DNA of 64,000 nucleotides from Roseomonas sp. (lineage in GTDB: Bacteria; Pseudomonadota; Alphaproteobacteria; Acetobacterales; Acetobacteraceae). This document shows positions 21,092 through 36,917 of the stretch, in pieces. The translations under genes were made by a program, and so were the position numbers. Where the stretch lies: the NCBI GenBank assembly GCA_020249505.1, contig JADCFN010000051.1, positions 1 through 64,000 of the forward strand. Direction: 5' to 3'. The notes beneath the pieces are model-generated. The model searched no databases and was not told the DNA's origin. It saw only the letters and a list, made by a program, of their open reading frames with translations. Positions within the stretch are counted from its first letter, which is position 1; every line of letters begins with the position of its first letter.

Positions 21092-21128
21092 GAGACCGAC
21101 GAAAGTTTTATCCGCTCACGAGCAACCT

Positions 21129-21160
21129 GCGGCGCTATCGATCTAAACAGGTAGCGCCGC
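21129..21160 (+). terminator. Hairpin downstream of ftsZ, possible end of dcw operon
   Basis: GCGGCGCTA (21129-21137) and TAGCGCCGC (21152-21160) form a perfect 9-bp stem with a 14-base loop, 38 bp after the ftsZ stop and before the convergent azlD gene. No T run follows, so it is not a classical intrinsic terminator; it could end transcription with Rho or protect the 3' end. Confidence 0.4.
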
Positions 21161-21188
21161 TGGGGGCGAATGGCTTGCTGATGAACCG

Positions 21189-21515
21189 TTAAGAGGGGAT
21201 CAGCGAACGCAACACCAGCATCGCTATCAGCCCTGCCAAAAGCGCCGGCAGCAGATTGCGCCCAAAGGCAAGGCACACCGCAACGCCAACCCCAAGCCCG
21301 AAAAGCCGCGCGGCCAAAGGCACATCGGCCAGTGCCCCGGTTGGCGCGATAATCGCCAGCATGACAAAGGCCGCGAGCGTTGCCTGCGCAATCGCCGTCG
21401 CCCAGGCAATGACGGGATGATCCGCGCCAAGCCCGCCCGCCAGCCACACGCCGGCACTCCGCAGCAATAGACAAGCAAGGGCCGTCAGCGCGAGGGCGAT
21501 ATCAGCGGCTTCCAC
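21189..21515 (-). CDS. azlD: AzlD family branched-chain amino acid exporter subunit
   Basis: Small hydrophobic protein of about 108 residues with three to four membrane segments, typical of AzlD, the small partner of AzlC in branched-chain amino acid and amino-acid analogue export. GTG at 21515 is chosen: it has a GGGGGC ribosome-binding stretch six bases upstream and overlaps azlC by 14 bp; a longer frame to 21551 lies further within azlC. The LFGLGVGVAVCLAFGRNLLPALLAGL segment near the C-terminus matches the family. Confidence 0.8.
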   Translation of the reverse strand: MEAADIALALTALACLLLRSAGVWLAGGLGADHPVIAWATAIAQATLAAFVMLAIIAPTGALADVPLAARLFGLGVGVAVCLAFGRNLLPALLAGLIAMLVLRSLIPS

Positions 21516-22215
21516 GCTTGCGCCCCCACAAAAAAGCGATGGTCCCACCAATAATCCCCGCCGCCAAAAGCCCCATGGAGGACGGCAGGATGAAGGTCAG
21601 CCCCGCCGCCGCTGCACCGCATAGAATGGCGCGGCGCGGTGCGGGCTTGTTGACATCGGCGGCCAGCAGCAGCGCGTAATAGAGCGGATTGACGAATAGC
21701 AGCGCCGCGCGCGCGTGATCATCCAACATGCCCGCCACGTAAAACCCCGCGAGTGCGGCAAGCCCCGCCACCACCCAGCTTGTCAGGCCAAAGCCCAAAA
21801 ACCAGGAAAGCCTGACGGAGGAAGCGATTTCGGGAAAGGCGCGCATCGCCGCCGCCCAAGGGGTCACCGCAATGAAGGGAATGGCCGGGATCAGGCGCTT
21901 GCGCTCAGTCACGCCGAAAAGCGGCGTGATGGCAATTGCCATGGGCAGGAAGCGCGCATTCACTGCAATCGCACCCATCACCGCGGGCGCGATGCCGCTG
22001 ACAAAACCCGTGCTGGCTGCCTGCACCAATACTAATTGCCCGGGCATGCCATAAATCGCCCAGCAGGCCACCAAAGCCCAGCCTGGCGGCAGCCCTGCTT
22101 CGCGCACTGCCGCCCCGAAGGCGAGGAAGGTGGCCGCCATGGCGACCCCCGCCGCCCCAACCGCATCACGCGCGCCAAACAGCGCCGCACTGCGCGATGA
22201 GGTAACGCTACCCAT
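21502..22215 (-). CDS. azlC: AzlC family branched-chain amino acid permease
   Basis: Integral membrane protein, 237 residues, the large subunit of an AzlCD exporter. Motifs: GVAMAATFLAFGAAVREAGLPPGWALVACWAIYGMPGQLVLVQ and ALVLNARFLPMAI-like VNARFLPMAIAITPLFG, then a further series of hydrophobic helices ending in a basic GRKRGSR tail. It overlaps azlD, forming a two-gene unit, and lies 46 bp downstream of the DUF4011 helicase on the same strand, so it may be cotranscribed with it by chance. Confidence 0.88.
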   Translation of the reverse strand: MGSVTSSRSAALFGARDAVGAAGVAMAATFLAFGAAVREAGLPPGWALVACWAIYGMPGQLVLVQAASTGFVSGIAPAVMGAIAVNARFLPMAIAITPLFGVTERKRLIPAIPFIAVTPWAAAMRAFPEIASSVRLSWFLGFGLTSWVVAGLAALAGFYVAGMLDDHARAALLFVNPLYYALLLAADVNKPAPRRAILCGAAAAGLTFILPSSMGLLAAGIIGGTIAFLWGRKRGSR

Positions 22216-22261
22216 CCTTGCGCGGATGCATGACAGCGTAGGGCGAAGCAGCCTGCATGCG

Positions 22262-25200
22262 CTAAAGCTTCACCACCCCAGCACCGATCAAGCCTGCAAG
22301 CCGCGCCGCGATGGCGGTTTGCGCATTGGCATCCAGCCCCAGCAGGCGATGAATACCGGCGGCGAGTTCCGCTTCCGTCGTCGCCGGGCGCAGCGCCGAG
22401 AGTTTTTCAGCCGCAACAGCGATTTCGCGTGGCGATACGGCAGCAGCGCGGCGCAAATGCGCGCCCGCAGCGCGGCGATCCCTCGGCACAATCGTGGCAC
22501 CATCGGCCAAAAGAAAACCCTGTTCTTCCTTCACGCCATGCAATTGTCGCGCAAGCGCCAAAGCCTGGCGCAAGGCATCGCGCGATGGCGTGGGCAGCGC
22601 TTCCAGCCCCCATAACAACCGCACACGTTCGGCAAGGCTTTCGGTGGTGATCGGCGATTCAATTGTAATGACTTCAGCAAGAATGCCAGCGAGTGTGGCG
22701 AAGGGAACATCGGCAATGGCGATATCTTTCGGCACCTCCGGCACCGCTTCGCGGTAAGGCTCAGCGAGGCCAGTTTCTGGTGCGGATACTGCGGTTTCAA
22801 CGCTTGCTGCGGCAGGTGCGGCGCCAAGCAAGGCAGCGATACGCTGAGCCTCAGCTTCTGGCCTGCCATACCAGGAAAGCGACCAGGCACGCGCGAGCTT
22901 CCAGCCCATGGCCTGCAGCGCGCTGCCGCGGCCCCTTTCGCGATCCCGCGCGCAGCGCAGCGCGGCCCAATCCCCCGCATCGGCTTCAATGCCCAACACG
23001 TAATTTCCCGCCTCACGCGCGGCGACATCCAAAAATAATCCTGCCATGCCAACGCGCGGCACAGCTTCCTTGCCCGCGGCTTCTATGGCCTTGCCAATAG
23101 CCACCGCGATTGGTGCGGCCTGGGTTTTCGCTGTCGCGGCGCGCGGTGCATCCCCGGCGGCGGCGAAGGCAAGGAAGGCTTTGAGAGTGGCCACCCCACG
23201 CCCTGAGGCGCGGGCCAAGTCAATGTCATCCGCACCAATGGAGGAAAACACAATGCAGCGCTTCTTGGCGCGCGTGATCAGTACATTCAGCCGGCGTTCG
23301 CCGCCATCGGCGGAAAGCGGGCCGAAGCGCATGGCAAGCTTGCCATCAGCGCCCCGCCCATAGCCCACCGAAATCATGATCGAATCGCGTTCATCGCCCT
23401 GCACGTTTTCTAGGTTTTTGACGAAAAACGGCTCATCAGGATGTGCGCTGAAAAACGCTTCTGTATCCGGGTTATCGCGCCGCGCCGCTTCAACGGCGTT
23501 CAGGATCGCATCACGCTGGCGGATGGAGAACGCCGCAATGCCCAGGGTATCGCCCGGCGTCTCCCGCGCATGGGCGATCACCGCTTCCGCCACGGCACGG
23601 GCTTCTTCCGCATTGGTGCCCGTGCCGCCCGTATCAAACCGCCCTTCAACGCGGCGGAGTGAAAGCCCAAGCGCGGCCGAACGCGCACGCGGCGATGGCA
23701 GGATGAAAAGCCGATTATCGTAGAATTCCGCGTTGGATGTCGCGATCAGGCTTTCATGCCGGCTGCGATAATGCCAACGCAGCATGGCCGATGGCAGGCC
23801 GCGCGCATTGCAAAGCCCCAGAATGCTTTCCACATCGCGCGCCGCGACAACATCGTGCGTATCTTCGGCGGCTTCCTCGCCTTCCTCACCGGTCATGCGC
23901 TGGAAGAAGCGCGTGGGCGGCATTTGCTTGTCATCACCCACCACCACCACCTGCCGGCAACGCGCAATAGCGCCGAGTGCATCCACAGGTTCCACCTGGC
24001 TCGCTTCATCAATCACCAGCAGGTCGAAGGAAAGCCCAGGCTTCAGCCCATGCGGGGGGGCGAGGAATTGCGCCACCGAAAGCGGGCTCATCATGAAAAT
24101 TGGTTTGGCCTTTTGCACCGCCTGGGAAGCGCGCAGCAGCAATTCGCGCACCGGCAAATGGCCGCGCTTCTTTTCCATCTCACCGCGCAGCACCGCCATG
24201 CCCGGCGCGCCATCGCGCACTTCCTTGACGCGCAGCGCATGGGCATAGGCGGCTTCCGCGCGCGTCAGCGTAATGCGCGCGCGATCAGCTTCGCGGAAAT
24301 CCTCAACCAGCCGATCCGCCGCCGCGCCGTCAAACGCCGCCAATTCGGGGTGCGGCGCCATGGCCGCGCGGAGCAAGCCTTCATGCAGCGCGAAGGAAAA
24401 CACATCCTCCGCCGCTTCGGGCGCGACACGCCCATCAGTCAGGCGCTCCAGCAAGGGCTCCAGCCCCGCAGCCGAAGCAGCGGCGCGGCGCCAGCCAAGC
24501 CAGGCATCAAGCGCTTCCGGCGCCGCCGCCCAATCGCCAAGCCGCGCGGCCAGGGTAGCGAAGGAAGGCTCATCGCTGCCAAAAGCGACACGCGCATCAA
24601 GCTGTGTTGCCTGCTGCAATTCCTGAAAAGCATCGAGTGCGGCTTGCAGCGGCGCGGCCTCGGCCGGCTTGGCGCCATTCGCGAGCGCCGCCACCGCCGC
24701 CGCGCCATGGGTTTTGCGCCACGCAAGCAAGGCGGTCAGCGGCGCGGGATCACTGGCTTCCCCCTGCCAAAGCGTGCCAAAGGCCCCGCGGCCCAAAGCA
24801 TCGCCTTGGCGCAATGCTTCGCGCGCGGCCTGCCCGGCCAGCGCGGCATCAAGCGCCGGCAGCGGGTTTTCCGCATCGCGCGCAATGCGCGCCGCGAGCG
24901 TTTTAGCATCGCGCCGTGCGCCAGAAAGAAAACCGAAAACCCCACCTGCTTCGGCAAGCGTAGCGCGCGCTTCGACAATGTCAGCAACATCCAAAGCACC
25001 CGGCAAAAGCTGCGGATCAGCCTTGGCTTTTTGCAAAGCGCCCAGCGCCTGCACCAAAGCTTCCAGCGGTGCCACATCCCCAGCCCAGGCTTCGTGCTTC
25101 AGCGTCGCCGCATCATGTGCCGGCGCCGATAGCAAAGCCGGGCGTAAGGCAAGCGCGCTTTCCGCTGCCTTCGGTCCAGCCTCTACGCCAAGCGCCGCAC

Positions 25201-26776
25201 CTGCCGCGGCAAAGGCGCGAATCCAACCGGGCAGCCGCCCCAGCAGGCGATCCGCATCGGCGGGGCCGATATCGGCCATCACGCCGCGCCAGGGGCTTTG
25301 CGCGCCGCCTTCTGCCGCATAGCCGGCCAGCAGCTTGATCGCATCGCGGCGCGCTTCAATCGCCGCCGCGTCCCATTCCGTGACATTCACGGAAAAATCC
25401 GGCGCCGCAATACCGCGCTGCCGCAAGCCAACCAGCGCGCCTATCACCTGATGCAGCGCAAGGCCCGAAGCGCCAACCGTTCCGCGCATCGCCGCCGCAT
25501 GGCGATTGATCCGCCCGCGCAGCGACCCAAGGCGACGCACCACCGCATCACGTTCCGGCTTGGGCGGCATGGGCAGGGAAAGTGTTGCGCGCAATTCATC
25601 CAGCACTGCGCGCTTCGATTGCTTTTCCGAATGCAATTCCAGGCAGGCGGCGCCAAGGCCAATACACTCCAGCCGGCGCTTCACCACTTCCAGCGCGGCG
25701 AGCTTTTCGGCCACGAACAAAACGCTTCGCCCATCCAGCACGGCCTGGGCGATGATATTGCTGATGGTCTGGCTTTTGCCGGTGCCGGGCGGGCCCTGGA
25801 TCACGACATGCCCGCCGCGCCGGACGGCTTCCGCCGCAAGCGCCTGGCTGCCATCCACATCCATCACGTGATCCAGGCGTTCCACCGGGATTTCTGCATC
25901 TACATCGGCTTCATCGGCAAAAACCGGCGGGATGGAAAGCGCCTCACCGCCCACCAGCGCGCGCACTATGGGGTGATCGGCCAGGCCCGGATTTTTCTCA
26001 GGCCCTAGGTCCCGCCACATCAGGAATTTAGCGAAGGAGAATAGCCCAATCGCCAGCGCATCCGCCTCCACGCGCCAATTGGCGCGCTCTGCCACCAGCG
26101 CTGCGATGGCTTCCCCCCAGGCGGTCGGCGTATAGGCCTCAGCATCGAAATCCGGCAGCGCGGTCTTGAAATTCACCTTGAGCATTTCGCGGAGGGACAA
26201 ATTCTCTGCGATATCACCCACCGCCCCGCGCAGCTTGAAATTCTGCGAAACCCCTTCGCGTTCCAGCGCCACCGGCAGCAGCGCCAAAGGGGCGCGACGT
26301 TCGGTCTCAGGCGTCGCGGGATCGCGCCAGACCAGCGCGCCAAGAGCCAGATAAAGTGTCGGCACGCCCGTTTCTTCGCGGGCCGTGCGCGCATCCTGCA
26401 TGATATCGCGCAGCCGGCGCACAAGGTCTGTCGGCGGCAATTGCACACGCAGCTTGTCATCGCGTTGATAGTCTTCCCGCGCTGCGTCGGCTTTAGCGGT
26501 GCCAACACCTTCCACCTTTACCTTCACGCTGCGTGCGCGGCGCGGCTTGCCGGGGGTTGCTTCCTCAGGCATGGTTTCGGGCGTGGCGGCCGAAGCTTCA
26601 AAGCCGAAGGCACGGCCCGCCTGCAATGCGCCAAGGACAAAATCCGCATCCTCATCATCAATGATGATGACACCGCGTGAAGCACCCGGCTTGGGCAGGG
26701 ATAGCAGCCGGTTGCGCGTGGAAAGATCCAGTAAGCCCCGGCGGGCTTCTTCCAATGCGGCGCGAAGATCCGTCAT
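22262..26776 (-). CDS. DUF4011 / SF1 helicase / Vsr-like / DUF3320 multidomain protein
   Basis: A 1504-residue protein. The N-terminus (1-250) starts LRAALEEARRGLLDLSTRNRLLSL, the signature of DUF4011. A superfamily 1 helicase core follows: Walker A GPPGTGKSQTISNII near residue 330, Walker B region VIDEASQVEP near 922 after a long Ala-rich insert, and the C-terminal lobe with NVLITRAKKRCIVFS near 1170. A region around 1230-1310 with VLGIEADAG and RDRERGRGSALQAMGWKLARAWSLSW looks like the Vsr/DUF559-type nuclease fold, and 1355-1410 resembles DUF3320. Proteins with this architecture are widespread and often found near phage-defence genes; the function here is inference. ATG at 26776 has a GGAA site upstream; a TTG at 26800 is the alternative. 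The insert between helicase motifs is unusually Ala-rich. Confidence 0.85.
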   Translation of the reverse strand: MTDLRAALEEARRGLLDLSTRNRLLSLPKPGASRGVIIIDDEDADFVLGALQAGRAFGFEASAATPETMPEEATPGKPRRARSVKVKVEGVGTAKADAAREDYQRDDKLRVQLPPTDLVRRLRDIMQDARTAREETGVPTLYLALGALVWRDPATPETERRAPLALLPVALEREGVSQNFKLRGAVGDIAENLSLREMLKVNFKTALPDFDAEAYTPTAWGEAIAALVAERANWRVEADALAIGLFSFAKFLMWRDLGPEKNPGLADHPIVRALVGGEALSIPPVFADEADVDAEIPVERLDHVMDVDGSQALAAEAVRRGGHVVIQGPPGTGKSQTISNIIAQAVLDGRSVLFVAEKLAALEVVKRRLECIGLGAACLELHSEKQSKRAVLDELRATLSLPMPPKPERDAVVRRLGSLRGRINRHAAAMRGTVGASGLALHQVIGALVGLRQRGIAAPDFSVNVTEWDAAAIEARRDAIKLLAGYAAEGGAQSPWRGVMADIGPADADRLLGRLPGWIRAFAAAGAALGVEAGPKAAESALALRPALLSAPAHDAATLKHEAWAGDVAPLEALVQALGALQKAKADPQLLPGALDVADIVEARATLAEAGGVFGFLSGARRDAKTLAARIARDAENPLPALDAALAGQAAREALRQGDALGRGAFGTLWQGEASDPAPLTALLAWRKTHGAAAVAALANGAKPAEAAPLQAALDAFQELQQATQLDARVAFGSDEPSFATLAARLGDWAAAPEALDAWLGWRRAAASAAGLEPLLERLTDGRVAPEAAEDVFSFALHEGLLRAAMAPHPELAAFDGAAADRLVEDFREADRARITLTRAEAAYAHALRVKEVRDGAPGMAVLRGEMEKKRGHLPVRELLLRASQAVQKAKPIFMMSPLSVAQFLAPPHGLKPGLSFDLLVIDEASQVEPVDALGAIARCRQVVVVGDDKQMPPTRFFQRMTGEEGEEAAEDTHDVVAARDVESILGLCNARGLPSAMLRWHYRSRHESLIATSNAEFYDNRLFILPSPRARSAALGLSLRRVEGRFDTGGTGTNAEEARAVAEAVIAHARETPGDTLGIAAFSIRQRDAILNAVEAARRDNPDTEAFFSAHPDEPFFVKNLENVQGDERDSIMISVGYGRGADGKLAMRFGPLSADGGERRLNVLITRAKKRCIVFSSIGADDIDLARASGRGVATLKAFLAFAAAGDAPRAATAKTQAAPIAVAIGKAIEAAGKEAVPRVGMAGLFLDVAAREAGNYVLGIEADAGDWAALRCARDRERGRGSALQAMGWKLARAWSLSWYGRPEAEAQRIAALLGAAPAAASVETAVSAPETGLAEPYREAVPEVPKDIAIADVPFATLAGILAEVITIESPITTESLAERVRLLWGLEALPTPSRDALRQALALARQLHGVKEEQGFLLADGATIVPRDRRAAGAHLRRAAAVSPREIAVAAEKLSALRPATTEAELAAGIHRLLGLDANAQTAIAARLAGLIGAGVVKL

Positions 26777-26780
26777 GCGA

Positions 26781-26942
26781 TTATTTTTTCCGGAAGGCAA
26801 AGGTGATCAGCAGCACGCAGCCAACCAGCGCCAGAATGGCCAGCATGCCCTGCACAACTTCGAAATTCGGGGAGTCGCGATGGATGAAGATGGATGCGGC
26901 CGCCGCGCCCATCTTCATCAGGGTTTGCAGTATCCATTCCAT
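26781..26942 (-). CDS. Small single-pass membrane protein, 53 residues
   Basis: Short frame beginning MEWILQTLMKMGAAAASIFI, with a hydrophilic middle (HRDSPNFEVVQG) and a strongly hydrophobic helix MLAILALVGCVLLITFAF followed by a basic RKK end. It has an AGAGG ribosome-binding site seven bases before ATG 26942 and stops four bases before the start of the DUF4011 helicase, so the two are probably cotranscribed. I recognise no family. It could be an inner-membrane microprotein; a link to the helicase is inference from spacing only. Confidence 0.6.
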   Translation of the reverse strand: MEWILQTLMKMGAAAASIFIHRDSPNFEVVQGMLAILALVGCVLLITFAFRKK

Positions 26943-27028
26943 TGAAACGCCTCTCATCCTTCGGCTGTAGTCGTCTCGCCATTATGGAACAGTCTTGCAC
27001 ATCCCCCGCGGCAGTCGAAGGGTGATTT

Positions 27029-27550
27029 TCAGGGCGGCGGTGGGCCGGGCAGCATACGGTTCTCCAATGCCTCGATACGGGAAAGGGAAGCCTTAAGCAG
27101 CGAAATCAGCTCCGCCACTTGCTGTTCGCGCAGCAGGTCCAGCTTTTCATGCAGCAGGCTGATTTCGGCCTCGGCGCGGATATTCACTTGGTAATCGGCG
27201 ATGGACCGGATGCGATCTATATGGGCTTGGCGGTTCTGGCTCATCATGATGATGGGCGCTGTATAGGCCGCCTGGAAGGACAGCATCAGGTTCAGCAGGA
27301 TGAAGGGATAGGGGTCCCAGGCATTGCCGCCAAAGGCCGCATTGGCAATCAGCCAGGCCAGCAATAGCCCGGACTGGATCAGGATAAAGCGCCAGGACCC
27401 GACCGTTGCCGCCACCAGATCGGAAAGCCTCTCACCAAGGGTCAGGTCAGGCGCAGGCCCTTCACCGCGCCGCCTTTGCCGAGCGCGCGACAGGGCGGTA
27501 CGCAAATGGATGTGGCGGCGGTGATGATGAGGTTCGGGATGCTCGGCCAT
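27029..27550 (-). CDS. DUF1003 membrane protein
   Basis: A 173-residue protein with the DUF1003 core: two membrane helices (WRFILIQSGLLLAWLIANAAF and PYPFILLNLMLSFQAAYTAPIIMMSQNRQ), then a conserved cytoplasmic segment AHIDRIRSIADYQVNIRAEAEI and a coiled-coil C-terminus (LLHEKLDLLREQQVAELISLLKAS). The N-terminus is His/Arg-rich. Start at ATG 27550 follows AGGGGGAA. The family is widespread but of unknown function. It lies upstream of the small membrane protein on the same strand with an 86-bp gap. Confidence 0.88.
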   Translation of the reverse strand: MAEHPEPHHHRRHIHLRTALSRARQRRRGEGPAPDLTLGERLSDLVAATVGSWRFILIQSGLLLAWLIANAAFGGNAWDPYPFILLNLMLSFQAAYTAPIIMMSQNRQAHIDRIRSIADYQVNIRAEAEISLLHEKLDLLREQQVAELISLLKASLSRIEALENRMLPGPPPP

Positions 27551-27613
27551 GCAGAATTCCCCCTGCAAAGCGCGCAAGTTGCACCATTCACCCCGGCAGG
27601 AACATGATAAAAA

Positions 27614-29035
27614 TCAACTCCGGCCGTAAGTATCCTCAAAGCGCACGATGTCATCCTCGCCAAGGTAGGAGCCGGATTGCACCTCAATCAGCGTCAGCGG
27701 GATCTTGCCGGGGTTTTCCATGCGATGGATGCAGCCCAGCGGCAGATAGACGCTTTCATTCTCCCGCAGCATGATTTCCTCACCATCGCGGCGCACAATG
27801 GCAGTGCCGGAAACCACCACCCAATGCTCGGCACGATGAAAATGCTTTTGCAGGGAAAGCTTGGCGCCGGGGCGGACTTCGATCGTCTTGACCTGGAAAC
27901 GCTCCCCCATGATCAGGCCCTCATAATGGCCCCAGGGGCGATAGGCGCGGCGGTGTTCGGTGGCTTCCTTGGCGCCGCGCGCCTTCAACTGATCCACCAG
28001 CTTTTTCACATCCTGCGCGTGGTCCCGATGCATGGCGAGCACGGCATCATCGGTCACCACCACCACGACGTCTTCCAGCCCGATCACGCCGGTGAGGATG
28101 CCTTCACTGCGCACATAGCAATTCTTGGCATCCACCAATTCCACCGGGCCTAGCACGGCATTGCCGGCCGCATCCTTCGGCTGAATCTCCCACAGCGCGG
28201 CCCAGGAACCGATATCCGACCAGCCAATGGCAGCCGGCACCACAGCAGCTTTTTGCGTACGTTCCATCACCGCATAGTCAATGCTGATCGATGGTGTCGT
28301 GGAGAAAGCCGCGGCTTCCAGGCGGATAAAATCCCCATCGCGCGCGGCACCGGCAACCGCAGCGCGCACACCCTTCAGCACCTCTGGCGCGTAGGTTTCA
28401 AGCTCGGCCAACATGGTCGCGGCGGTGGCGACAAACATGCCGGAATTCCACAAATGCCGGCCGGTTTTGAGAAACTCTGCCGCGCGGGCCGCATCAGGCT
28501 TTTCCACAAAGCGCGCGATGCGCTTCACGCCATCGCTGCCCGGCAAGGCATCACCGGCTTCGATATAGCCATAGCCCGTTTCAGGCGCGGTAGGCTGCAT
28601 GCCGAAGGTGACAATCGCCCCCGCTTGCGCCGCCGCAGCGGCCTTGGTGAGCGCGGTTTGCAGCGCCGCAACATCGCCAATTGCTGCATCTGCGGCCATG
28701 AACCACAGCACCGCGCCGGGCGCCGTTTCCTCAGCGAGCAAAGCCGCGGCGGCGATGGCGGGCGCGCTATTGCGGCCAATCGGTTCCAGCACGATGGCCG
28801 CACCCTTGTCGCGCAATTGCTCGGCCACCAGGAAGCGATGCGCTTCATTGCAAACAACCATAGGCGGCAGGAAGCCCGCGCCGGAACCCCGCGCGGCGGT
28901 TTCCGCCAGCATGGTCTTGTCGGAAGCGAGCGGCCAGAACTGCTTGGGGTAGCTTTCGCGGGATAGCGGCCATAGCCGCGTGCCGGTGCCGCCGGAAAGG
29001 ATCACGGGCAGGATCAGGGGGGAATTGGCGTTCAT
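27614..29035 (-). CDS. manC: Mannose-1-phosphate guanylyltransferase / mannose-6-phosphate isomerase
   Basis: A bifunctional enzyme of 473 residues that makes GDP-mannose for exopolysaccharide, LPS or other glycans. The N-terminal nucleotidyltransferase starts VILSGGTGTRLWPLSRESYPKQF with the GGxGTRLxPLSR pyrophosphorylase motif, followed by FVEKPDAARAAEFL. The C-terminal cupin domain (about 365-470) has the type II phosphomannose isomerase motif LSLQKHFHRAEHWVVVSGTA and QSGSYLGEDDIVRFEDTYGR at the end. ATG 29035 is preferred over a TTG two codons upstream. No other polysaccharide genes lie nearby. Confidence 0.93.
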   Translation of the reverse strand: MNANSPLILPVILSGGTGTRLWPLSRESYPKQFWPLASDKTMLAETAARGSGAGFLPPMVVCNEAHRFLVAEQLRDKGAAIVLEPIGRNSAPAIAAAALLAEETAPGAVLWFMAADAAIGDVAALQTALTKAAAAAQAGAIVTFGMQPTAPETGYGYIEAGDALPGSDGVKRIARFVEKPDAARAAEFLKTGRHLWNSGMFVATAATMLAELETYAPEVLKGVRAAVAGAARDGDFIRLEAAAFSTTPSISIDYAVMERTQKAAVVPAAIGWSDIGSWAALWEIQPKDAAGNAVLGPVELVDAKNCYVRSEGILTGVIGLEDVVVVVTDDAVLAMHRDHAQDVKKLVDQLKARGAKEATEHRRAYRPWGHYEGLIMGERFQVKTIEVRPGAKLSLQKHFHRAEHWVVVSGTAIVRRDGEEIMLRENESVYLPLGCIHRMENPGKIPLTLIEVQSGSYLGEDDIVRFEDTYGRS

Positions 29036-29170
29036 GGTCAATCATCGCTCCGCATCGCGCGGGGCTTAGGGATAAATCGGGGCAAAGCCAAGGCAGAGGC
29101 TTCGGGCGTTTCCCCGGGCGGGCTTCCAGTATAGAGCTTTCCGCCCCATCCAGCCTGAAAGCCGCCTGCC

Positions 29171-29608
29171 TTGGATAACCCTGTTGCCCCCGCCGTTCCG
29201 GAAGGCTTCGTGCCCCGCCCTGCCGGGGGGCCGTTTCTGGAACCCATCGGCCCCATCATGATCCGGCGGGATCACGGGCCGCTTGCCTTTGGGCTTCGGA
29301 TCGAAAAGCGCCATTGCAACAGCAAGGACATGGCCCATGGGGGCATGTTGGCGACTTTTGCTGATCTCGCGCTCGGGATTGGTGGCTTCAACCTGGCCGG
29401 GGTGACGGGGTTCTTCACCACCATCAGCCTAAATTCGGATTATCTGGCGCCTGCGCTGCTTGGCACCTGGCTGCAATGCGAACCGGTGCTGCTGCGCCGC
29501 ACCCGCACGCTGGTTTTCGCGCAAGGCGTCTGCATGGCGGATGGCAAGCCTGTGCTGCGCGCCAGCGGGGTTTTCGCCCTGCCGCGGGAGCCCACGGCAG
29601 GCGCGTGA
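29171..29608 (+). CDS. PaaI-type hotdog-fold thioesterase
   Basis: A 145-residue protein with a single hotdog domain: GPFLEPIGPIMIRRDHGPLAFGLRIEKRHCN, then DMAHGGMLATFADLALG, in which HGG and the downstream D are the usual catalytic region of the PaaI/4-hydroxybenzoyl-CoA thioesterase group, and TISLNSDYLAPALLGTWLQCE. It probably hydrolyses an acyl-CoA. The predicted start is TTG 29171, since the next ATG (residue 30) would cut into the first strand; the start is the least certain part. It is divergent from manC and convergent with the SDR gene. Confidence 0.85.
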   Translation: MDNPVAPAVPEGFVPRPAGGPFLEPIGPIMIRRDHGPLAFGLRIEKRHCNSKDMAHGGMLATFADLALGIGGFNLAGVTGFFTTISLNSDYLAPALLGTWLQCEPVLLRRTRTLVFAQGVCMADGKPVLRASGVFALPREPTAGA

Positions 29609-29617
29609 CAGGTCCGC

Positions 29618-30403
29618 TTATACCACCGGGCTTTTGCCGCCATCCACATTGATGGCAGTGCCGCTGATGAAGCCGCCCTGTTCGCTAGCGAGCAGCAAAG
29701 CCATGGCGGCGAATTCCTCGGCCTTGCCGATACGGCCGAGGGGGACAGCCTTGCCTTGTTCGGCCTTCCAATCTTCCCAGGTGATGTTGCGCTTTTCCGA
29801 TGCATGCCGGCGCACCCATTGGTCGCTTTCAATAATGCCGACCAGCATGGCATTCACCAGCACATTATGGGGCGCGAATTCATTCGCCATGGCCTTGGTG
29901 AGCGCCATGCCGGCAGCGCGCGAGACTGATGTAGGCGTTGAACCCCCAAGCGGTGCCTTGGCGCCGATATTGAGCACATTGATGATGCGGCCCCATTTGC
30001 GATCCCGCATGGCAGGCAGCGCCAGGCGGCACAGCCGGATGGCCGCAAACAACTTCAGGTCCAGATCATCCTGCCAAAGCGCATCGGTTACTTCCAGGAA
30101 GCCACCGCGCTGGGAAGTGCCGGCATTATTGATCAGGATATCCACCTGGCCGAGGCCCTTCACCGCCGCGGCATAGGCAGCTTCGCAGCCTTCAGCGGTG
30201 CGGATATCAGCGGCAATGGCGGCAACCTTGGCGCTGGGCGCAGCGGCGCGGATTTCCGCTTCCGCCTTGGCAAGGCTTTCCGCCCCGCGCGCCACAATGG
30301 CGACATGCCCGCCCGATTCAGCAAACATTTTCGCCATGGCAAGGCCGAGGCCCTTGGACCCGCCGGTAATAAGCGCGGCGCGCCCGTTCAAGGTGATATT
30401 CAT
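29618..30403 (-). CDS. SDR-family protein lacking the catalytic triad
   Basis: A 261-residue Rossmann-fold protein of the short-chain dehydrogenase/reductase superfamily: cofactor loop TGGSKGLG (13-20), NNAG (92-95), and the C-terminal GGFISGTAINVDGG. The catalytic positions are altered: in the strand where Ser is expected the sequence is INVLNIG (Asn145), and the YxxxK motif reads T158-S-V-S-R162. This looks like a recognisable SDR subgroup rather than a random mutation. Activity as a classical oxidoreductase is therefore doubtful; it may bind NAD(P) or act with a different mechanism. ATG 30403 follows GGGGGAG. Confidence 0.88.
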   Translation of the reverse strand: MNITLNGRAALITGGSKGLGLAMAKMFAESGGHVAIVARGAESLAKAEAEIRAAAPSAKVAAIAADIRTAEGCEAAYAAAVKGLGQVDILINNAGTSQRGGFLEVTDALWQDDLDLKLFAAIRLCRLALPAMRDRKWGRIINVLNIGAKAPLGGSTPTSVSRAAGMALTKAMANEFAPHNVLVNAMLVGIIESDQWVRRHASEKRNITWEDWKAEQGKAVPLGRIGKAEEFAAMALLLASEQGGFISGTAINVDGGKSPVV

Positions 30404-30471
30404 GGATCGCTCCCCCAAATGATGGGGGCCATCCTGCCGGAAGTGGGGCGGGACGCAAGCGTTGGGGGGAG

Positions 30472-30546
30472 TGGAGCGGGCGGGGGGAATCGAACCCCCG
30501 ACATTCAGCTTGGGAAGCTGACGTTCTACCTCTGAACTACGCCCGC
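30472..30546 (-). tRNA. tRNA-Gly (anticodon CCC)
   Basis: Reading the minus strand from 30546, the acceptor GCGGGCG pairs with CGCCCGC, the D-stem GTTC/GAAC is intact, the anticodon arm is TCAGC-TTCCCAA-GCTGA with anticodon CCC, and the T-arm is GGGGGTTCGATTCCCCC. CCA is genomically encoded at 30474-30472. Its 5' half, from the anticodon loop outwards, is repeated at 34428-34468, so the gene is the left border of a probable inserted cassette that reconstitutes it. Confidence 0.97.
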
Positions 30547-30577
30547 GCCGGACAACCCCTTTGTATCCGCAGGGGCC

Positions 30578-30859
30578 TCAGCGGGCAAGTCGGCCGCGCA
30601 TTCCATAACGGGCCAGCCCCGTTCGGACGTTGTGCTGCCCCTCGGCAGCGGACCATTGGCGGCCGATGACCTCGAATGAGCCGTTCGCCTCGTGCTGGAA
30701 AGGTAGCGCCGCGTGAATGCACATCAGAAGCAGCTTGGTGGAGAGCGTGTACAACCCGGTTGATGAGGTCGAGCACGCGCCCTCCAACGGCGCCGCTTCT
30801 GCGCTGATGCAAGCGTCTACGCGGCAGTTGCTGATCGGCCTGTCCTGCGAGGCGGCCAA
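30578..30859 (-). CDS. Hypothetical protein, 93 residues
   Basis: The frame starts at ATG 30859 and encodes a 93-residue protein with no family I recognise. The middle is moderately hydrophobic (TGLYTLSTKLLLMCIHAALPF) followed by a polar part, FEVIGRQWSAAEGQHNVRTG, and a basic end. Codon third positions are GC-rich as in real genes of this genome, and it is on the same strand as, and 84 bp downstream of, the DUF2290 gene. A longer overlapping frame at 30537-30947 looks less protein-like. It may be a third cassette gene or a remnant; confidence is low. Confidence 0.3.
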   Translation of the reverse strand: MAASQDRPISNCRVDACISAEAAPLEGACSTSSTGLYTLSTKLLLMCIHAALPFQHEANGSFEVIGRQWSAAEGQHNVRTGLARYGMRGRLAR

Positions 30860-30943
30860 GAAGTTGCAGATGTTGTTCTAAGTCGACGCTGCGCTCAGGA
30901 AGGCATTTCACGAAGGCTGAGGAGGATGGCGTAGCCGCTCTGC

Positions 30944-31618
30944 TCAAGGATGCCAGTGTATGTGCATCGACGTGAGGTCAACCTCGGTGATGCAGGTGTT
31001 GTGGCGGCTATCCCCGATAGCGTGTAAGCACATCTCGCTTTCCCAAAGCGATGGGTAGAAATTAGAAAATATAAATCGCACAAAGCCGCGTAGCTGTAGC
31101 GGCGCTCGGACCGGGATACGACAGCAGGCTCTATTCAAAGTGGCGTGTGATGCCGGGTGCTGAGGTCCTGCCTTGAGGGGATCGTAGTCAAAGCGGATAG
31201 CCGACTGCAACGAAATTCTTTGCAAGATATCGGCAGGGCTGAGAGCCGCGATGAAGTCTGACAGAACGACGCCCTCCATTTCTTCCAACGAAAAGATTAC
31301 CGGACAAGGAATAAAGGCTAATCGATGCCAAACAACTTCGTGGCCCTTCAGGCGATATGAGGCCTGCAACAGGGCGCCGTCGTTGAGAACCAAGGAAAAT
31401 TGCCGGTGGTCGAGAAAAAAGAGGTATTCTTCCATTGTGGCGAACTGGTCGTGCGGAAATGCCGCGTCGTTGGGGAGCGGTGTGGACCAAGTCACAAGTG
31501 TCGTCCGAGCAGCCCCGTCTGGAACCGCTTTATGCGTTTGCGCATCCATCGCGTGCCCACCTTCAAGCAAGGCGGTGGATAGTTGCGTAAGTTGCTGAGC
31601 GAGATGGCTGGCGGTCAC
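30944..31618 (-). CDS. DUF2290 family protein
   Basis: A 224-residue protein whose C-terminal half matches what I know of DUF2290: IRFDYDP (141-147), HPASHATL (154-161), CRIPVRAPLQL (166-176) and FVRFIFSNFYP (179-189). The N-terminal half includes EEYLFFLDHRQFSLVLNDGALLQASY, which fits the family too. Function is unknown. The start is GTG at 31618, 15 bases after the helicase stop, so the two are almost certainly cotranscribed. I know of DUF2290 proteins only as uncharacterised and commonly linked to helicase-like genes; the pairing supports a joint role, plausibly phage defence. Codon use matches the helicase and not the flanking core genes. Confidence 0.8.
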   Translation of the reverse strand: MTASHLAQQLTQLSTALLEGGHAMDAQTHKAVPDGAARTTLVTWSTPLPNDAAFPHDQFATMEEYLFFLDHRQFSLVLNDGALLQASYRLKGHEVVWHRLAFIPCPVIFSLEEMEGVVLSDFIAALSPADILQRISLQSAIRFDYDPLKAGPQHPASHATLNRACCRIPVRAPLQLRGFVRFIFSNFYPSLWESEMCLHAIGDSRHNTCITEVDLTSMHIHWHP

Positions 31619-31633
31619 CGCGATCAGTCCGAG

Positions 31634-33757
31634 CTAATTGCGAAGGCCGGATCTTAGAATGGCTTGAATTTTCTCTGGGAGAGACTCTAGCGCGATTTCT
31701 CCCGCGTCGATCATATGGATTAGACGTTCGAAGCTCTCCACATCTTTCTTTATGGAGGCGACCTCATTGTCCGAACGATCCCGGTGAATTCTTTTGAGCT
31801 TATTGATTTCGTCCTCGGTTGGATATGTGAACTGCAATTGGAAGCCGCTTGTCTCGACAGCCCCTACCTCCGCTACGAGCTTCTCCATGTTGGAGCCAAC
31901 TCCAGAGATGCGGACCCATGCGCGGGAGCGCGTAATGGCGGTGAAGATTATGTTCCGCTTTCGGCTAAGGTCCCAACCACCAAAACATGCCTCGGCACCA
32001 ACCACGTAGACCATCGGTGCCTCATTACCCTTTGCTCGATGAATACTGGTGATCGCCACCGAGTCGTCTTGAAATATGAGGTCGCGACTTGACGTAATTC
32101 CCGCAATATGCGCGCCCATTCCATGTTTCTGAAGTGTCCGCATCAATGCTGCTCCGCGAGACCTAACGGCGAGGAGGTCAGCAATAATAACAAGGATGTC
32201 GTCTGCCTCGAGCTCATCATGCTCAAGATTCCTGCATATCTCCTGTGCGACCCACTCATTTTCCCGCTCGGCATTATCGAACAGACTGAGCCTAAGAGCA
32301 TCGGTAGGATTGAGCAGACTTGAGAAGAACTCCGGAGATGCGTCTTTACTGCGACTCAACTTGACCTGCCGACCTAGCTGTAGCGCCCCATCAACCGCCT
32401 CGTAGCCGATCTCTGTCCAAAGGCCCACATCGTCAAACATCTGCACTAGCCCTTCGGGCCGGTAGATGCCAAATCCGAGCGCGTGCGCTGCTGTTAGCGA
32501 CCAAGGTGTGTTGCGGTAGCAGACCCTCAAGATGATATCCTGCTGCGGATGGTCCTGTAGGTTCCGCAGACTAACTCTCGGCCGACCAGATGGGTCCCGC
32601 CCAAAAATCGTCTCGGCGGGCGGCATCGTGTAGTCGCCAAGGTTTTGTAACTCATCGTATGCCCAAACAATGCGCTTGGGTTGCTTTACGGCGCCATAAG
32701 CAATCTGGAAGAATTCTTGCGGAAGGTCCTGCGCCTCATCAATTATTATGAGGTCGTAAATCTGGACTGCCTGCTCGATCGAGACCTCCGACAGAAGTTC
32801 TTTGCAAACCCCGCTGAACGCTAGACCAGATCCAAACTTCTCTTTAGCGTAGCCGAAATCACGCGCAGCCTTACCGTTCGCGCGCGCGATCTCGGAGTAG
32901 ACTCCCGCTGTAGACGCACTGCCCCAAGCGTGCATCACGCGCAACTTTGTCCAGTCCGGATCATCTCTAGCGATCTCGAAATGAAATCTCTGTATGAGGG
33001 CTCGAAATTGTTGATATAAAGATCGCGTATTGAACGTCACGACGATCTGCCAATCTGGATGCTTTGCGTGTAAAAGTGCTGCTTTTTGCGCCAAGACAAT
33101 TGTCTTCCCCGAACCCGCAAGTCCGCGTATGCGCTGTGGCCCTTCAGGATACTCGATTGCCGCCTTCTTTTGCCAGCGATCCAGGTTAGCAATCTGCTTT
33201 TCAATCTCCTTGACAATCGCGCCCTTGGACTGTTTTCCGGTTACGTTGGCTCGCTTCTTGCGCGGCTTCATGGTTGACGTTGTTTGGATGGCAGCATTTA
33301 CATATTGGAGGAGACTCCGTTCTAGCGGCGCCCCCTTGCTCAAGATGCCAAGCAGTGAGCCCGGAGTGACCACGATCACATCCTCGGGCAGAGCACAATC
33401 AGGGAGCCTTGGAGCGAGTGTCACGGTTCGAATCTCAAAGGCGAGGTTTCGCCCCTTCCGAAGCTCGCGGTGTTCCTTGAGCTTGGTTTCTAGGCCGACG
33501 AACATGTCATTGTGCAGACGGCTTAGCGAGTCGATCCAACCCTGTTGAGGCTGTTCTCCCTGCCCGGATAGATCGAATGCTACGACTCCAAACTCTTCAC
33601 ACGTCAGGAGAGCATCTATTTGGAGGCGCCCATCAGCGGCGCTGAGTAACGGATACCCGATGTAGAGAGTGCCGGTTGGATTGACCTCACGCAGCTTGCT
33701 CAGCAACTCGGTCGCTTCGCGTGTTTGATTGGCCTCACCGAACGCAACATCGAGCAT
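31634..33757 (-). CDS. SF1 helicase with N-terminal nuclease-like region
   Basis: A 707-residue UvrD/Rep-like superfamily 1 protein (numbers below count from a TTG start seven residues upstream at 33778). The N-terminal 170 residues carry RLQIDALLTCEEFGVVAFDLSG (51-72), reminiscent of the NERD/PD-(D/E)xK core but with Asp-Leu-Ser where E-x-K is expected, so nuclease activity is doubtful. Helicase motifs: Walker A GLAGSGKT (219-226), DEAQDL (347-352), YDELQ (374-378), SIHRAKGNEAPMVYVVG (578-594) and FTAITRSRAWVRI (612-624). The start is ambiguous between ATG 33757 and TTG 33778. It precedes the DUF2290 gene by 15 bp and follows an 11-bp palindrome. Confidence 0.85.
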   Translation of the reverse strand: MLDVAFGEANQTREATELLSKLREVNPTGTLYIGYPLLSAADGRLQIDALLTCEEFGVVAFDLSGQGEQPQQGWIDSLSRLHNDMFVGLETKLKEHRELRKGRNLAFEIRTVTLAPRLPDCALPEDVIVVTPGSLLGILSKGAPLERSLLQYVNAAIQTTSTMKPRKKRANVTGKQSKGAIVKEIEKQIANLDRWQKKAAIEYPEGPQRIRGLAGSGKTIVLAQKAALLHAKHPDWQIVVTFNTRSLYQQFRALIQRFHFEIARDDPDWTKLRVMHAWGSASTAGVYSEIARANGKAARDFGYAKEKFGSGLAFSGVCKELLSEVSIEQAVQIYDLIIIDEAQDLPQEFFQIAYGAVKQPKRIVWAYDELQNLGDYTMPPAETIFGRDPSGRPRVSLRNLQDHPQQDIILRVCYRNTPWSLTAAHALGFGIYRPEGLVQMFDDVGLWTEIGYEAVDGALQLGRQVKLSRSKDASPEFFSSLLNPTDALRLSLFDNAERENEWVAQEICRNLEHDELEADDILVIIADLLAVRSRGAALMRTLQKHGMGAHIAGITSSRDLIFQDDSVAITSIHRAKGNEAPMVYVVGAEACFGGWDLSRKRNIIFTAITRSRAWVRISGVGSNMEKLVAEVGAVETSGFQLQFTYPTEDEINKLKRIHRDRSDNEVASIKKDVESFERLIHMIDAGEIALESLPEKIQAILRSGLRN

Positions 33758-33832
33758 GAGTCTGAGTTTCCCGTCCAAATTTGGTCGTAACGCGCTGGCG
33801 CTGCTTCCCGAGGGCGAGCGGGCGTTACATCA

Positions 33833-33861
33833 CCAATGTGACCCGACTCAGGTCACATTGG
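33833..33861. promoter_or_regulatory. Perfect 11-bp inverted repeat, candidate operator of the cassette
   Basis: CCAATGTGACC (33833-33843) and GGTCACATTGG (33851-33861) are exact complements around CGACTCA. The site lies 76-104 bp upstream of the helicase ATG on the minus strand. No T run follows on either side, so a dimeric repressor site is more likely than a terminator. No regulator gene is visible in the cassette. Confidence 0.55.
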
Positions 33862-34427
33862 AAGGTTGTCGGGCGAGTTCCCTTGGGGCGGCTCAGCAAA
33901 GGATGGGACACGGACTGGCCGGACGGCGCTGCGCAGGGGGGGGCTTCGACTCGTTCTGGTGTGCTGACCGCTCCTATGCCTGGTCCTGAAGCCCTCTCGC
34001 CCGGTCCGAGGTCGTGAACTGGGCAATGAGGTGGCCTCGCCGAGCCGTGGCGGCGGATGCCCAGCCAAATGGGAAGAGGCGCGCGAGGCAGCGCCTGCTA
34101 CAAAAGGGCTGTAAGCCGACACCCTGACCATCATCGGCAATCGGCCTCGATACCGGGCCCGGTGAAGGTCAATACGGCAGCCCGCAGCCCGCAGCGCGCG
34201 GTCTTCCATCGTGCGGCCGCAGCATCGGTGCCGCGGCAGGAACCGGCTCATGTCCCGGTTGCTAAACGGTCACGGCTCAGAGGCGGGGCACGGCCCAGCC
34301 GCCGAACGGAACCAGCACGGCATCCTGTGACCTTACCTGGCCTCTCTTCCGGGCCGGGCTGATAACCGCGCCAATCGTCCGGCCTAGGCAAGGACCACCT
34401 AGCCGAGCCGAACGTCTCGGTCTCGAA
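33862..34427. other. 566 bp without recognisable gene, right arm of the cassette
   Basis: Between the palindrome and the tRNA fragment I find no convincing gene on either strand. The sequence is GC-rich with open frames on both strands but no family motif and no good start signals. It may be decayed coding DNA. A weak hairpin (CCGAG/CTCGG at 34403-34420) lies near the right border. Confidence 0.5.
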
Positions 34428-34468
34428 TTGGGAAGCTGACGTGCTACCTCTGAACTACGCCCGCGCCG
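34428..34468 (-). repeat. Partial tRNA-Gly copy (5' half), right border repeat
   Basis: Forty of 41 bases equal 30510-30550: the anticodon loop TTCCCAA, the 5' anticodon strand, the D-arm and the acceptor 5' strand of tRNA-Gly. The single difference (30525 T versus 34443 G) breaks a D-stem pair in this copy. The 3' half is absent and the sequence diverges abruptly after the anticodon loop. This fits an attachment-site remnant left by integration at the anticodon loop of the tRNA. Confidence 0.8.
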
Positions 34469-34507
34469 CTCACGGGATATACCCGCCAGGGCAGGGGTCA
34501 GGCAAGC

Positions 34508-34969
34508 TCAACCTCTCGAAGCTGCGTCCCGCGCCACCGTCGCCAGCGCATCGGCGCGTTCATTCATGGGGTCCCCGGCATGGCCGCGCACCCAGCGCCA
34601 TTCAATCTCATGCGGTTTGGCGGCGGCCAGAATGGCCTGCCATAAATCAAGGTTCTTCACCGGCTCCTTCGCCGCATTGCGCCAATTGGCGCGGACCCAG
34701 CCATGGATCCAGCGGCTGATGCCGTTGCGCAGATATTCGCTATCGGTATGCAACGCCACGCGGCAGGGTTTTTTCAGCGCCTCAAGCGCTTTCAGCGCCG
34801 CGGTCAATTCCATGCGGTTATTGGTGGTCTCGGCCTCACCGCCCGATAACTCGCGCTCATGCTCGCCAAAGCGCAGAATGGCCGCCCAGCCGCCGGGGCC
34901 GGGGTTGGGTTTGCAGCCGCCATCGGTCCAAATCTGGACCAAGGGGCGCGGGTCTGCGCTGCCGGTCAC
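34508..34969 (-). CDS. rnhA: Ribonuclease HI
   Basis: Degrades the RNA strand of RNA-DNA hybrids. The 153-residue protein shows [20 protein letters not shown] with the first catalytic Asp, [13 protein letters not shown] with Glu, HTDSEYL with the second Asp and [18 protein letters not shown] with the His and final Asp. The start is GTG 34969, overlapping the thrB stop, so it is coupled to thrB and ispH upstream. The end lies only 39 bp from the tRNA-derived repeat that marks the cassette border. Confidence 0.97.
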
Positions 34970-35946
34970 AGGCCAAAGGCCGCAAGGGTTTCGGCGCCGC
35001 TGAAGAACCTGAGTTTTCGCAAATATTCCACCGGGTCCTTCCGCGTCACCAACGCGCCTTCGGGCGTATGGGTCCAGTCATAGAGCCGGGTCAGCAGAAA
35101 GCGCAGCGCCGCGCCGCGGCACAGCACCGGCAGCGCGGCCAATTCAGCCTCATTCATTGGGCGCATGGCGCGATAGGCGCCCAGCATGGCGCGCGCGCGC
35201 GTCACGTTGAAGGAATAATCCGCCTCAAAGCACCAGGCATTTAGGCAAACCGCGATGTCATAGGCGAAAAGATCCGTGCAGGCGAAATAGAAATCAATCA
35301 CGCCGGAAACACGCGGCTGGCCATCGGCACCCGGCAGGAAAAACGCATTATCGGGGAAAAGATCGGCGTGGATTTGCCCAACCGGCAGGCTGCCCTCGTT
35401 GGGCCAGGCGGCGAGAATGCCGGAAAGTGCCGCATCAAGCTCCGCGATCAGGCCGGGCTGCACCTCATCTCCCCGCGCGCGGCAGCCATCCAGCAGGGGT
35501 GCCCAGCCCTTGGGGCCAAGCGCATTGGGCCGGCTGAGCGCAAACCCCGCCCCGGCCAAATGCATTTCTGCCAAGGCCTTGCCGAGTGGCGCGCAATGCT
35601 CTGGCCGCACGCGGCGCGGCCAGACGCCGGGCAGAAAGGTGACAATCGCCGCCGGCCGCCCCGCCAATTCCCGCAAGGCCGCGCCATCCCGCCCATGCAC
35701 CGGCGTGGGGCAGGCCATGCCGCGCGCGGCCAAGTGTTCCATCAGGCCGAGGAAATACGGCAATTCCGCCGGGTCGACGCGCTTTTCATAGAGCGTCAGG
35801 ATGAAATCGCCTGCTTCGGTTTTCAGCGCGTAGTTGGAATTCTCCACACCCTCCGCAATGCCACGAAAAGCGAGCAATTCACCCAGCGCGTACTCGGCCA
35901 GGAAGGCGCGCAACGCCTCATCCGAAACCTCCGTATAGACAGCCAT
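34966..35946 (-). CDS. thrB: Homoserine kinase, type II (ThrB, APH-like)
   Basis: Phosphorylates homoserine on the threonine pathway. The 326-residue protein has the aminoglycoside phosphotransferase-like fold used by alphaproteobacterial Thr[42 protein letters not shown] at the N-terminus, catalytic loop [14 protein letters not shown] and [25 protein letters not shown] with the DFx metal-binding motif. It overlaps rnhA (GTGA) and abuts ispH at 35946 by one base, forming a three-gene unit also seen in other alphaproteobacteria. Confidence 0.95.
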
Positions 35947-36917
35947 TATTCGGCGGCGAGTCCGCGCGGCAGGCGGAAGGTGATTTGTTCTACCGCCACC
36001 ACCACTTCTTCGATTTCCAGCGCATAGGCTTCACCAAGCCGGGCAAGCACTTCTTCCACCAGCACTTCGGGCGCGCTGGCGCCGGCAGTCACCCCCACGG
36101 TCTTGCAGCCCTGCACCAGCGCAAGATCAAGATCCGCGCCGCGCTGCACCATCACGGCGCGGCGTGCGCCGCTGCGCTCCGCCACTTCGCGTAGGCGCTG
36201 GCTGTTCGATGAATTGGGCGCGCCCACCACCACCACCAGATCGGACCGTGCGGCAATCGCCTTCACCGCCGCCTGGCGATTGGTGGTGGCGTAGCAGATA
36301 TCTTCCTTGGCCGGGCCGCGAATATCCGGAAAGCGCCGTTGCAGGATGCTGATGATTTCCGCCGTATCATCCACGGAAAGCGTGGTTTGGGTTGTGTAGG
36401 CGAGTGTAGCGCCTTCGGGCGAAGCAACATTTTCCGCATCCGCCGCATCCTGCACCAGGGTCACGGCACCTTCGGGCAATTGGCCCATGGTGCCGATCAC
36501 CTCCGGATGGCCGGCATGGCCAATCAGGAAAAGATGGCGGCCATGTTCATGATGGCGTTCGGCTTCGCGATGTACCTTGCTCACCAGCGGGCAAGTGGCG
36601 TCGAGTGCGAACATCATGCGCTGCGCTGCCTCGGCCGGGACGGATTTCGGCACGCCATGGGCGGAAAACACCACGGGCTGGCCGTCATCGGGGATTTCAC
36701 TCAGTTCTTCGACGAAAACCGCGCCCTGCTTTTCCAGGCTTTCGACGACGAAGCGGTTATGGACGATTTCATGCCGCACATAAACCGGGGCGCCATGGCG
36801 TTTCAGCGCTTCCTCCACAATCTTAATGGCGCGGTCCACGCCGGCGCAAAAGCCTCGCGGGCCAGCGAGCAGAAGGTTCAGGGGCGGCTTGGCAGAGGCC
36901 ATGGGCGCAGGGTCCAT
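35946..36917 (-). CDS. ispH: 4-hydroxy-3-methylbut-2-enyl diphosphate reductase
   Basis: IspH, 323 residues, a [4Fe-4S] enzyme making IPP and DMAPP in the last step of the MEP isoprenoid pathway. The three cluster cysteines are visible: [27 protein letters not shown] and [12 protein letters not shown]. Other conserved parts are [15 protein letters not shown] and [18 protein letters not shown] 36917 or 36905 may be the start. First gene of the ispH-thrB-rnhA unit, divergent from the lipoprotein gene. Confidence 0.97.

Follow-up and report, generated by a model that had tools for sequence, protein, structure and literature searches.

The window, by which we mean the whole stretch of 64,000 nucleotides of Roseomonas sp. 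DNA analysed here, contains a helicase gene and a DUF2290 gene on the minus strand, 15 bp apart (Table 1). They lie in a cassette of 3,918 bp between an intact tRNA-Gly(CCC), the sole tRNA gene that ARAGORN finds in the window, and a copy of the 5' half of this tRNA; the intact tRNA and its cognate fragment have the same orientation and bracket the insert, as in a tRNA-targeting integrative island. The 41-bp direct repeat at the two borders is identical at 40/41 positions, to be compared with a best value of 24/41 among 200 shuffles of positions 30548-36000, and at E <= 1e-9 the genome of the window (G000) contains a single occurrence of the repeat fragment. The pair has a GC content of 53.9%; 1,109 overlapping 2.85-kb slices from elsewhere in the window average 62.1% and go no lower than 57.7%. 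The core gene on the far side of the cassette is presumably rnhA, a name that we assigned from its protein.

Two stretches of the cassette hold no recognised gene. Their four ORFs give no Pfam match at E <= 0.01, and DNA similar to either stretch is absent from the plasmid collection; outside G000, the only matches to the 649-bp stretch are of at most 42 bases, in 3/385 genomes of the class. Neither the ORF list, Pfam nor tblastn recognised an integrase ORF or a remnant of one in the cassette. A first-pass annotation had described a two-gene cassette, AT-richer than the rest of the window, between tRNA-Gly and a partial copy of it, with closely spaced genes on the minus strand and no further cargo, and this description is borne out in full.

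Table 1. Features of the cassette and its borders, in window coordinates
Feature	Position	Strand	Remarks
Intact tRNA-Gly(CCC), integration target	30472..30546	-	ARAGORN; 5' half now on cassette side
Left copy of the 41-bp direct repeat	30510..30550		From 4 bp upstream of the tRNA into its anticodon loop
Cassette DNA without recognised gene, 393 bp	30551..30943		Two ORFs without Pfam match; no similar plasmid DNA
Promoter-like sequence borne by the cassette for the tRNA	30560..30588	-	TTGCCC at -42, TACAAA at -19 from tRNA 5' end
DUF2290 protein, second gene of the pair	30944..31618	-	224 aa, GTG start; PF10053, PADLOC
SF1 (UvrD/Rep-like) helicase	31634..33778	-	714 aa from TTG; PADLOC, PF13538, PF00580, alignments, structure model
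Cassette DNA without recognised gene, 649 bp	33779..34427		Two ORFs without Pfam match; no similar plasmid DNA
Right copy of the repeat	34428..34468		Displaced tRNA-Gly 5' half, one mismatch (40/41)
Original tRNA promoter (putative), stranded	34476..34505	-	TTGCC at -41, TATATC at -17; beside the displaced fragment
rnhA-like core gene, far side of cassette	34508..34969	-	Near the tRNA in relatives without the cassette

Family membership and distribution of the pair

Judged by its proteins and gene order, the pair is a member of the published Helicase+DUF2290 anti-phage system (Rousset et al. 2022, PMC9122126). A helicase of the family and a DUF2290 partner are adjacent on one strand with the helicase first; the helicase scores 771.9 bits against the PADLOC Helicase model PDLC03002 over residues 8-712 of 714, and the DUF2290 protein 102.6 bits against PF10053 (cut-off 25) and 114.8 bits against PADLOC PDLC02998. 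The true start of the helicase is probably the ATG at 33757, where its homologues begin. A DrmB match of the DUF2290 protein, of 16 bits, was taken as chance.

Among look-alike systems, Gabija also has a UvrD-like helicase, GajB, and PADLOC scores the window helicase weakly there, at 34 bits or less. The Gabija partner GajA is an OLD/TOPRIM nuclease, whereas the partner in the window matches DUF2290 and has no GajA match, so the pair is not Gabija. Hachiman (HamAB, PMC12278908) likewise combines a helicase with a small partner in two genes and follows the sensor-effector logic proposed below. It differs in that neither of its proteins, the HamB-type helicase and HamA (DUF1837), is matched by the window proteins at E up to 0.1, and the DUF2290 model matches no PDB chain at E <= 0.001.

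According to the 2022 report, Helicase+DUF2290 inhibits phage T7 and is found in satellites and prophage hotspots (PMC9122126). The pair in the window has both proteins, with the helicase matching along its whole length, the gene order of its relatives and a mobile DNA carrier in common with the published system (PMC9122126), but it lies in a small integrase-less tRNA cassette instead of a P4-like satellite or prophage hotspot. The published anti-phage effect concerns T7 only and another member of the family, and protection by the copy in the window is predicted from its sequence. Since the system was published in 2022 (PMC9122126), has PADLOC models and is named in later papers (e.g. PMC10952713, PMC12278908), the statement in the first-pass annotation that no system with exactly this pair had been described is wrong. 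Its interpretation is right in kind and not new: the feature is one ordinary example of a known system, found in a setting that is instructive.

The pair recurs well beyond this genome. DUF2290 lies directly downstream of the helicase in 79/80 genome loci, these being the best 80 of 508 helicase relatives; since the alignment used for the search was built only from helicases beside DUF2290, the 80 loci are biased towards the paired clade. In 73 of the 79 the distance, measured between ORF ends, is -100 to +500 bp, and the six that overlap further do so because the longest possible start was used. The exception among the 80 is a helicase in a Caldilineaceae MAG (L065, 7989-10136), beside which the broader model does not find DUF2290 either. 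The helicase stands beside DUF2290 in all 16 plasmid records with a DUF2290 match, and the pair is present in 14/18 loci of viral contigs, the other four ending in or just after the helicase. Only 4/385 genomes of the class sample have DUF2290, and the helicase is present in 4/4 of them. Two more distant plasmid helicases, from Agrobacterium and Exiguobacterium, have an annotated DUF2290 neighbour. The deposited phage records gave no helicase match at E <= 1e-10.

The same survey does not support tRNA-flanked hot spots as a mark of the pair. A tRNA lies within 1 kb of 3/80 pairs and any tRNA is found in 10/80 loci, and five loci that were checked have no strong tRNA-fragment repeat. A general tRNA association was rejected on these counts, and the tRNA site therefore belongs to this genome and not to the system. 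Of the joint immune function that had been suggested, the known defence pair and the mobile-looking, tRNA-bounded cassette stand, but the tRNA setting is not system-wide.

Domains of the two proteins and their proposed roles

The helicase motifs are intact (QRIRGLAGSGKT, DEAQD), and approximately residues 10-121 form a degenerate NERD-like N-terminal domain. Here the segment IDALL...GVVAFDLS aligns with PDFVL...GLIVIECK of three plasmid NERD-helicases, in two of which Pfam recognises NERD. These NERD-UvrD helicases (PADLOC C3a187, 57 bits; L156-L158) have the same N-terminal domain and SF1 helicase at 29-30% identity, but PD...E-x-K is retained in them, and a plasmid gene table that is incomplete annotates no DUF2290 beside them. 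Across 40 aligned sequences, that of the window included, E is found at position 69 in none, K at position 71 in one and both in none, while D55 is kept in 37/40. This loss of E-x-K suggests that the N-terminus is very probably a nuclease fold without catalysis. The description of the N-terminus as nuclease-like thus holds for its alignment with NERD domains, but it probably does not cut.

In the structure model the N-terminus has the element order helix, five strands, helix, strand, which we take to resemble a PD-(D/E)XK domain. In the PDB, the helicase model is matched best by chains of human Schlafen-11 (E 7e-16), with PcrA at E 4e-13. Kinship with Schlafen-11 was not adopted, as these chains come only somewhat ahead of PcrA and UvrD.

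The DUF2290 protein was modelled by AlphaFold2 from 56 sequences with a mean pLDDT of 94.2, and Foldseek of the model against the PDB and viral models found nothing at E <= 0.001. Residues D80, P104, R142, H158, R167 and F179 are invariant in 56/56 sequences, H154 is kept in 54/56 and D144 in 53/56. As there is no structural relative at this threshold, conserved polar residues are the one argument for an effector role.

A search of the open-access literature found no mechanism for Helicase+DUF2290. In Hachiman, a sensor helicase holds a nuclease (PMC12278908), and by analogy the helicase would be the sensor and the DUF2290 protein the effector. The SF1 helicase might sense and move along abnormal DNA such as phage replication forks, ends or foreign plasmid replication, and its NERD-like domain, lacking E-x-K, would more probably bind DNA or a partner than act as a nuclease. 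DUF2290 is the likely effector, with a compact, unmatched fold, invariant D80, R142, H158 and R167 and near-invariant D144 and H154, and the helicase may hold and activate it as HamB does HamA. Overall, we favour, with a probability of about 0.6, a known anti-phage pair in a small, integrase-less cassette bracketed by tRNA halves, in which the helicase is the sensor and DUF2290 the effector.

It is rather unlikely that the helicase itself is the effector, either because its N-terminus cuts with unusual residues or because its motor disrupts phage replication, with DUF2290 only as a regulator. The modelled element order, which is like that of PD-(D/E)XK domains, the retention of D55 and the existence of NERD-helicases with no annotated DUF2290 neighbour are in line with such a role, but E-x-K is absent in 40/40 sequences, DUF2290 is missing in just one of the best 80 of 508 loci, and four polar residues of DUF2290 (D80, R142, H158, R167) are invariant in 56/56. 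On this evidence, any cutting would be the work of DUF2290 rather than of the helicase. On the preferred assignment of sensor and effector, we tentatively consider, as somewhat doubtful, that DUF2290 is a new enzyme fold and the effector of a complex, and that the helicase gave up its NERD nuclease and is now sensor and scaffold. If so, the job of cutting would have passed in this family from a nuclease domain fused to the helicase to a separate partner protein. The conserved residues of DUF2290 and the helicase form a short list for mutational testing.

The tRNA-Gly site and its changing cargo

The tRNA-Gly gene is rebuilt: its 5' half and upstream region have been replaced by cassette DNA. 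The insert belongs to the less common class with a 5' fragment, and it supplies the 5' half of the tRNA anew together with a promoter-like sequence. Among the 3,919 islands of the Islander catalogue, 3,760 have a 3' fragment and 159 a 5' fragment (PMC4383910), and a rebuilt bacterial tRNA keeps its original promoter with very few exceptions according to a review (PMC8371274). An insertion on the 5' side that re-supplies the upstream region is an uncommon arrangement. The Islander 5'-fragment islands resemble the cassette in the fragment and in the anticodon-loop site, but the catalogue requires an integrase (PMC4383910) and none is recognised in the cassette.

TTGCC at -41 and TATA at -17 are found in 8/8 relatives where the tRNA adjoins rnhA, and the promoter-like elements of the cassette, at -42 and -19, lie close to these conserved positions. 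A strict sigma-70 consensus scan gave no promoter in 30380-30700 and also missed the stranded element at 34476-34505; since it finds neither, we only infer their promoter function.

The cassette was inserted at a point in the anticodon loop, on the 5' side of tRNA-Gly(CCC). That the tRNA-half repeat instead arose by homologous recombination or duplication, and not by a site-specific integrase, is unlikely. Such an origin is in line with the lack of a recognised integrase in the cassette, where no ORF matches and the tyrosine integrase of a more distant genome of the genus (G001) gives a best tblastn hit of E 1.9, and with the absence of a match to that integrase in G000 at E <= 1e-20. However, the repeat stops in the anticodon loop, which is among the places where tyrosine integrases that target tRNA genes usually cross over (PMC4383910, PMC8371274), a different cassette is bracketed likewise in G013 and G015, and in G001 16 nt separate the end of the tyrosine integrase gene (PF00589; L030:4969-6138) from the 5' end of tRNA-Gly(CCC). 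Within 12 kb, G001 shows no distal repeat of the tRNA half, and its integrase has no match at E <= 1e-20 in any of the other 34 genomes, G000 included.

The tRNA-Gly(CCC) locus is found at 96-100% identity in 28/35 genomes of the genus (L126-L153). With the flanks of the window fused at the repeat (position 550 being the joint), the resulting sequence aligns unbroken, with one gap opening in each case, to G005 (1-591, 93.6%) and to G418 (1-589, 92.4%), and an uninterrupted site is thus seen from both flanks in two congeneric genomes. In G005 a different insert starts 41 bp past the joint, and in G418 the contig sequence ends there. In seven further genomes (G018, G412, G414, G407, G009, G008 and G002) one continuous match of 631-636 columns, containing 0-7 gap openings, begins at the tRNA and extends into the rnhA side, and in G411 this match is interrupted by about 77 nt. 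The 3' side of the tRNA in these eight has no match to 20001-30471 of the window, and they therefore give the right-hand junction only and not a two-sided empty site. The 3' sides of tRNA-Gly(CCC) in L126, L127, L136, L139 and L141-L144 are unlike that of the window and mostly unlike each other, and the eight genomes may have ordinary 3'-side islands or rearrangements there.

Of the genomes in which the tRNA adjoins the rnhA side, eight have an excess of at most about 77 nt and four, namely the window, G005, G013 and G015, are occupied; this count leaves out G415 and G416, with an rnhA match of only 87-89 bp, and G418, where the contig ends. The cargo of G013 and G015 is a small nucleotidyltransferase gene (NTP_transf_2; PADLOC PDC-S09, 36-37 bits), at whose far side the tRNA half and promoter recur as a decayed copy (90% and 76% matches), and since the tRNA and this copy bracket the cargo, the cassette is placed like that of the window. 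The inserts (L023:1740-2633 in G013, L027:6561-7600 in G015) consist of the minimal nucleotidyltransferase and a short ORF without family match.

In G005, CBASS genes lie between the tRNA-Gly promoter and rnhA (L020:5993-8469), near the position of the window's cassette. The effector is a phospholipase (395 bits), and the cyclase is divided between two reading frames (139 and 380 bits). The insert lies beyond the tRNA promoter and has no tRNA-half repeat, and therefore did not come in through the same att point. The helicase is present in G000, while the other 34 genomes of the genus have a sole match at E <= 0.001, of 93 residues in G003 (E 4e-5). One tRNA-Gly site in a genus thus takes different small cassettes.

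Foreign replicons and neighbouring genes

PA1372 and PA1371 of P. aeruginosa have been named a Helicase+DUF2290 system (PMC11637435), and in an earlier report a plasmid rep gene is expressed less and the plasmid loses its cost when PA1372 is inactivated (PMC4410645). This result shows that the system touches foreign replicons, and it is hard to square with an effector that simply destroys plasmids. It is quite improbable that plasmids or other replicons, and not phages, are the main target of the pair: loss-of-function mutations that compensate for a costly plasmid arise in PA1372 (PMC4410645, PMC11637435), but plasmids (16 records) and viral contigs themselves carry the pair, inhibition of T7 is published (PMC9122126), and plasmid rep expression fell and did not rise in the PA1372 mutants (PMC4410645).

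A scan for defence genes beside the pair covered 105/106 of the nearest ORFs, from 53/80 loci, and among the matches listed (25 of 157 overlapping families) are type I restriction, type IV restriction and HamB models; with this fraction listed and no control set, we claim no rate of defence neighbours. Four of nine annotated plasmid neighbourhoods contain BREX (L037), type I restriction (L038, L041) or an abortive-infection gene (L044). In the Thioflavicoccus plasmid pTHIMO01 (L037:1-14142) the BREX cluster encloses the pair: brxC and a DNA methyltransferase gene precede it, and a PglZ gene follows with three genes between.
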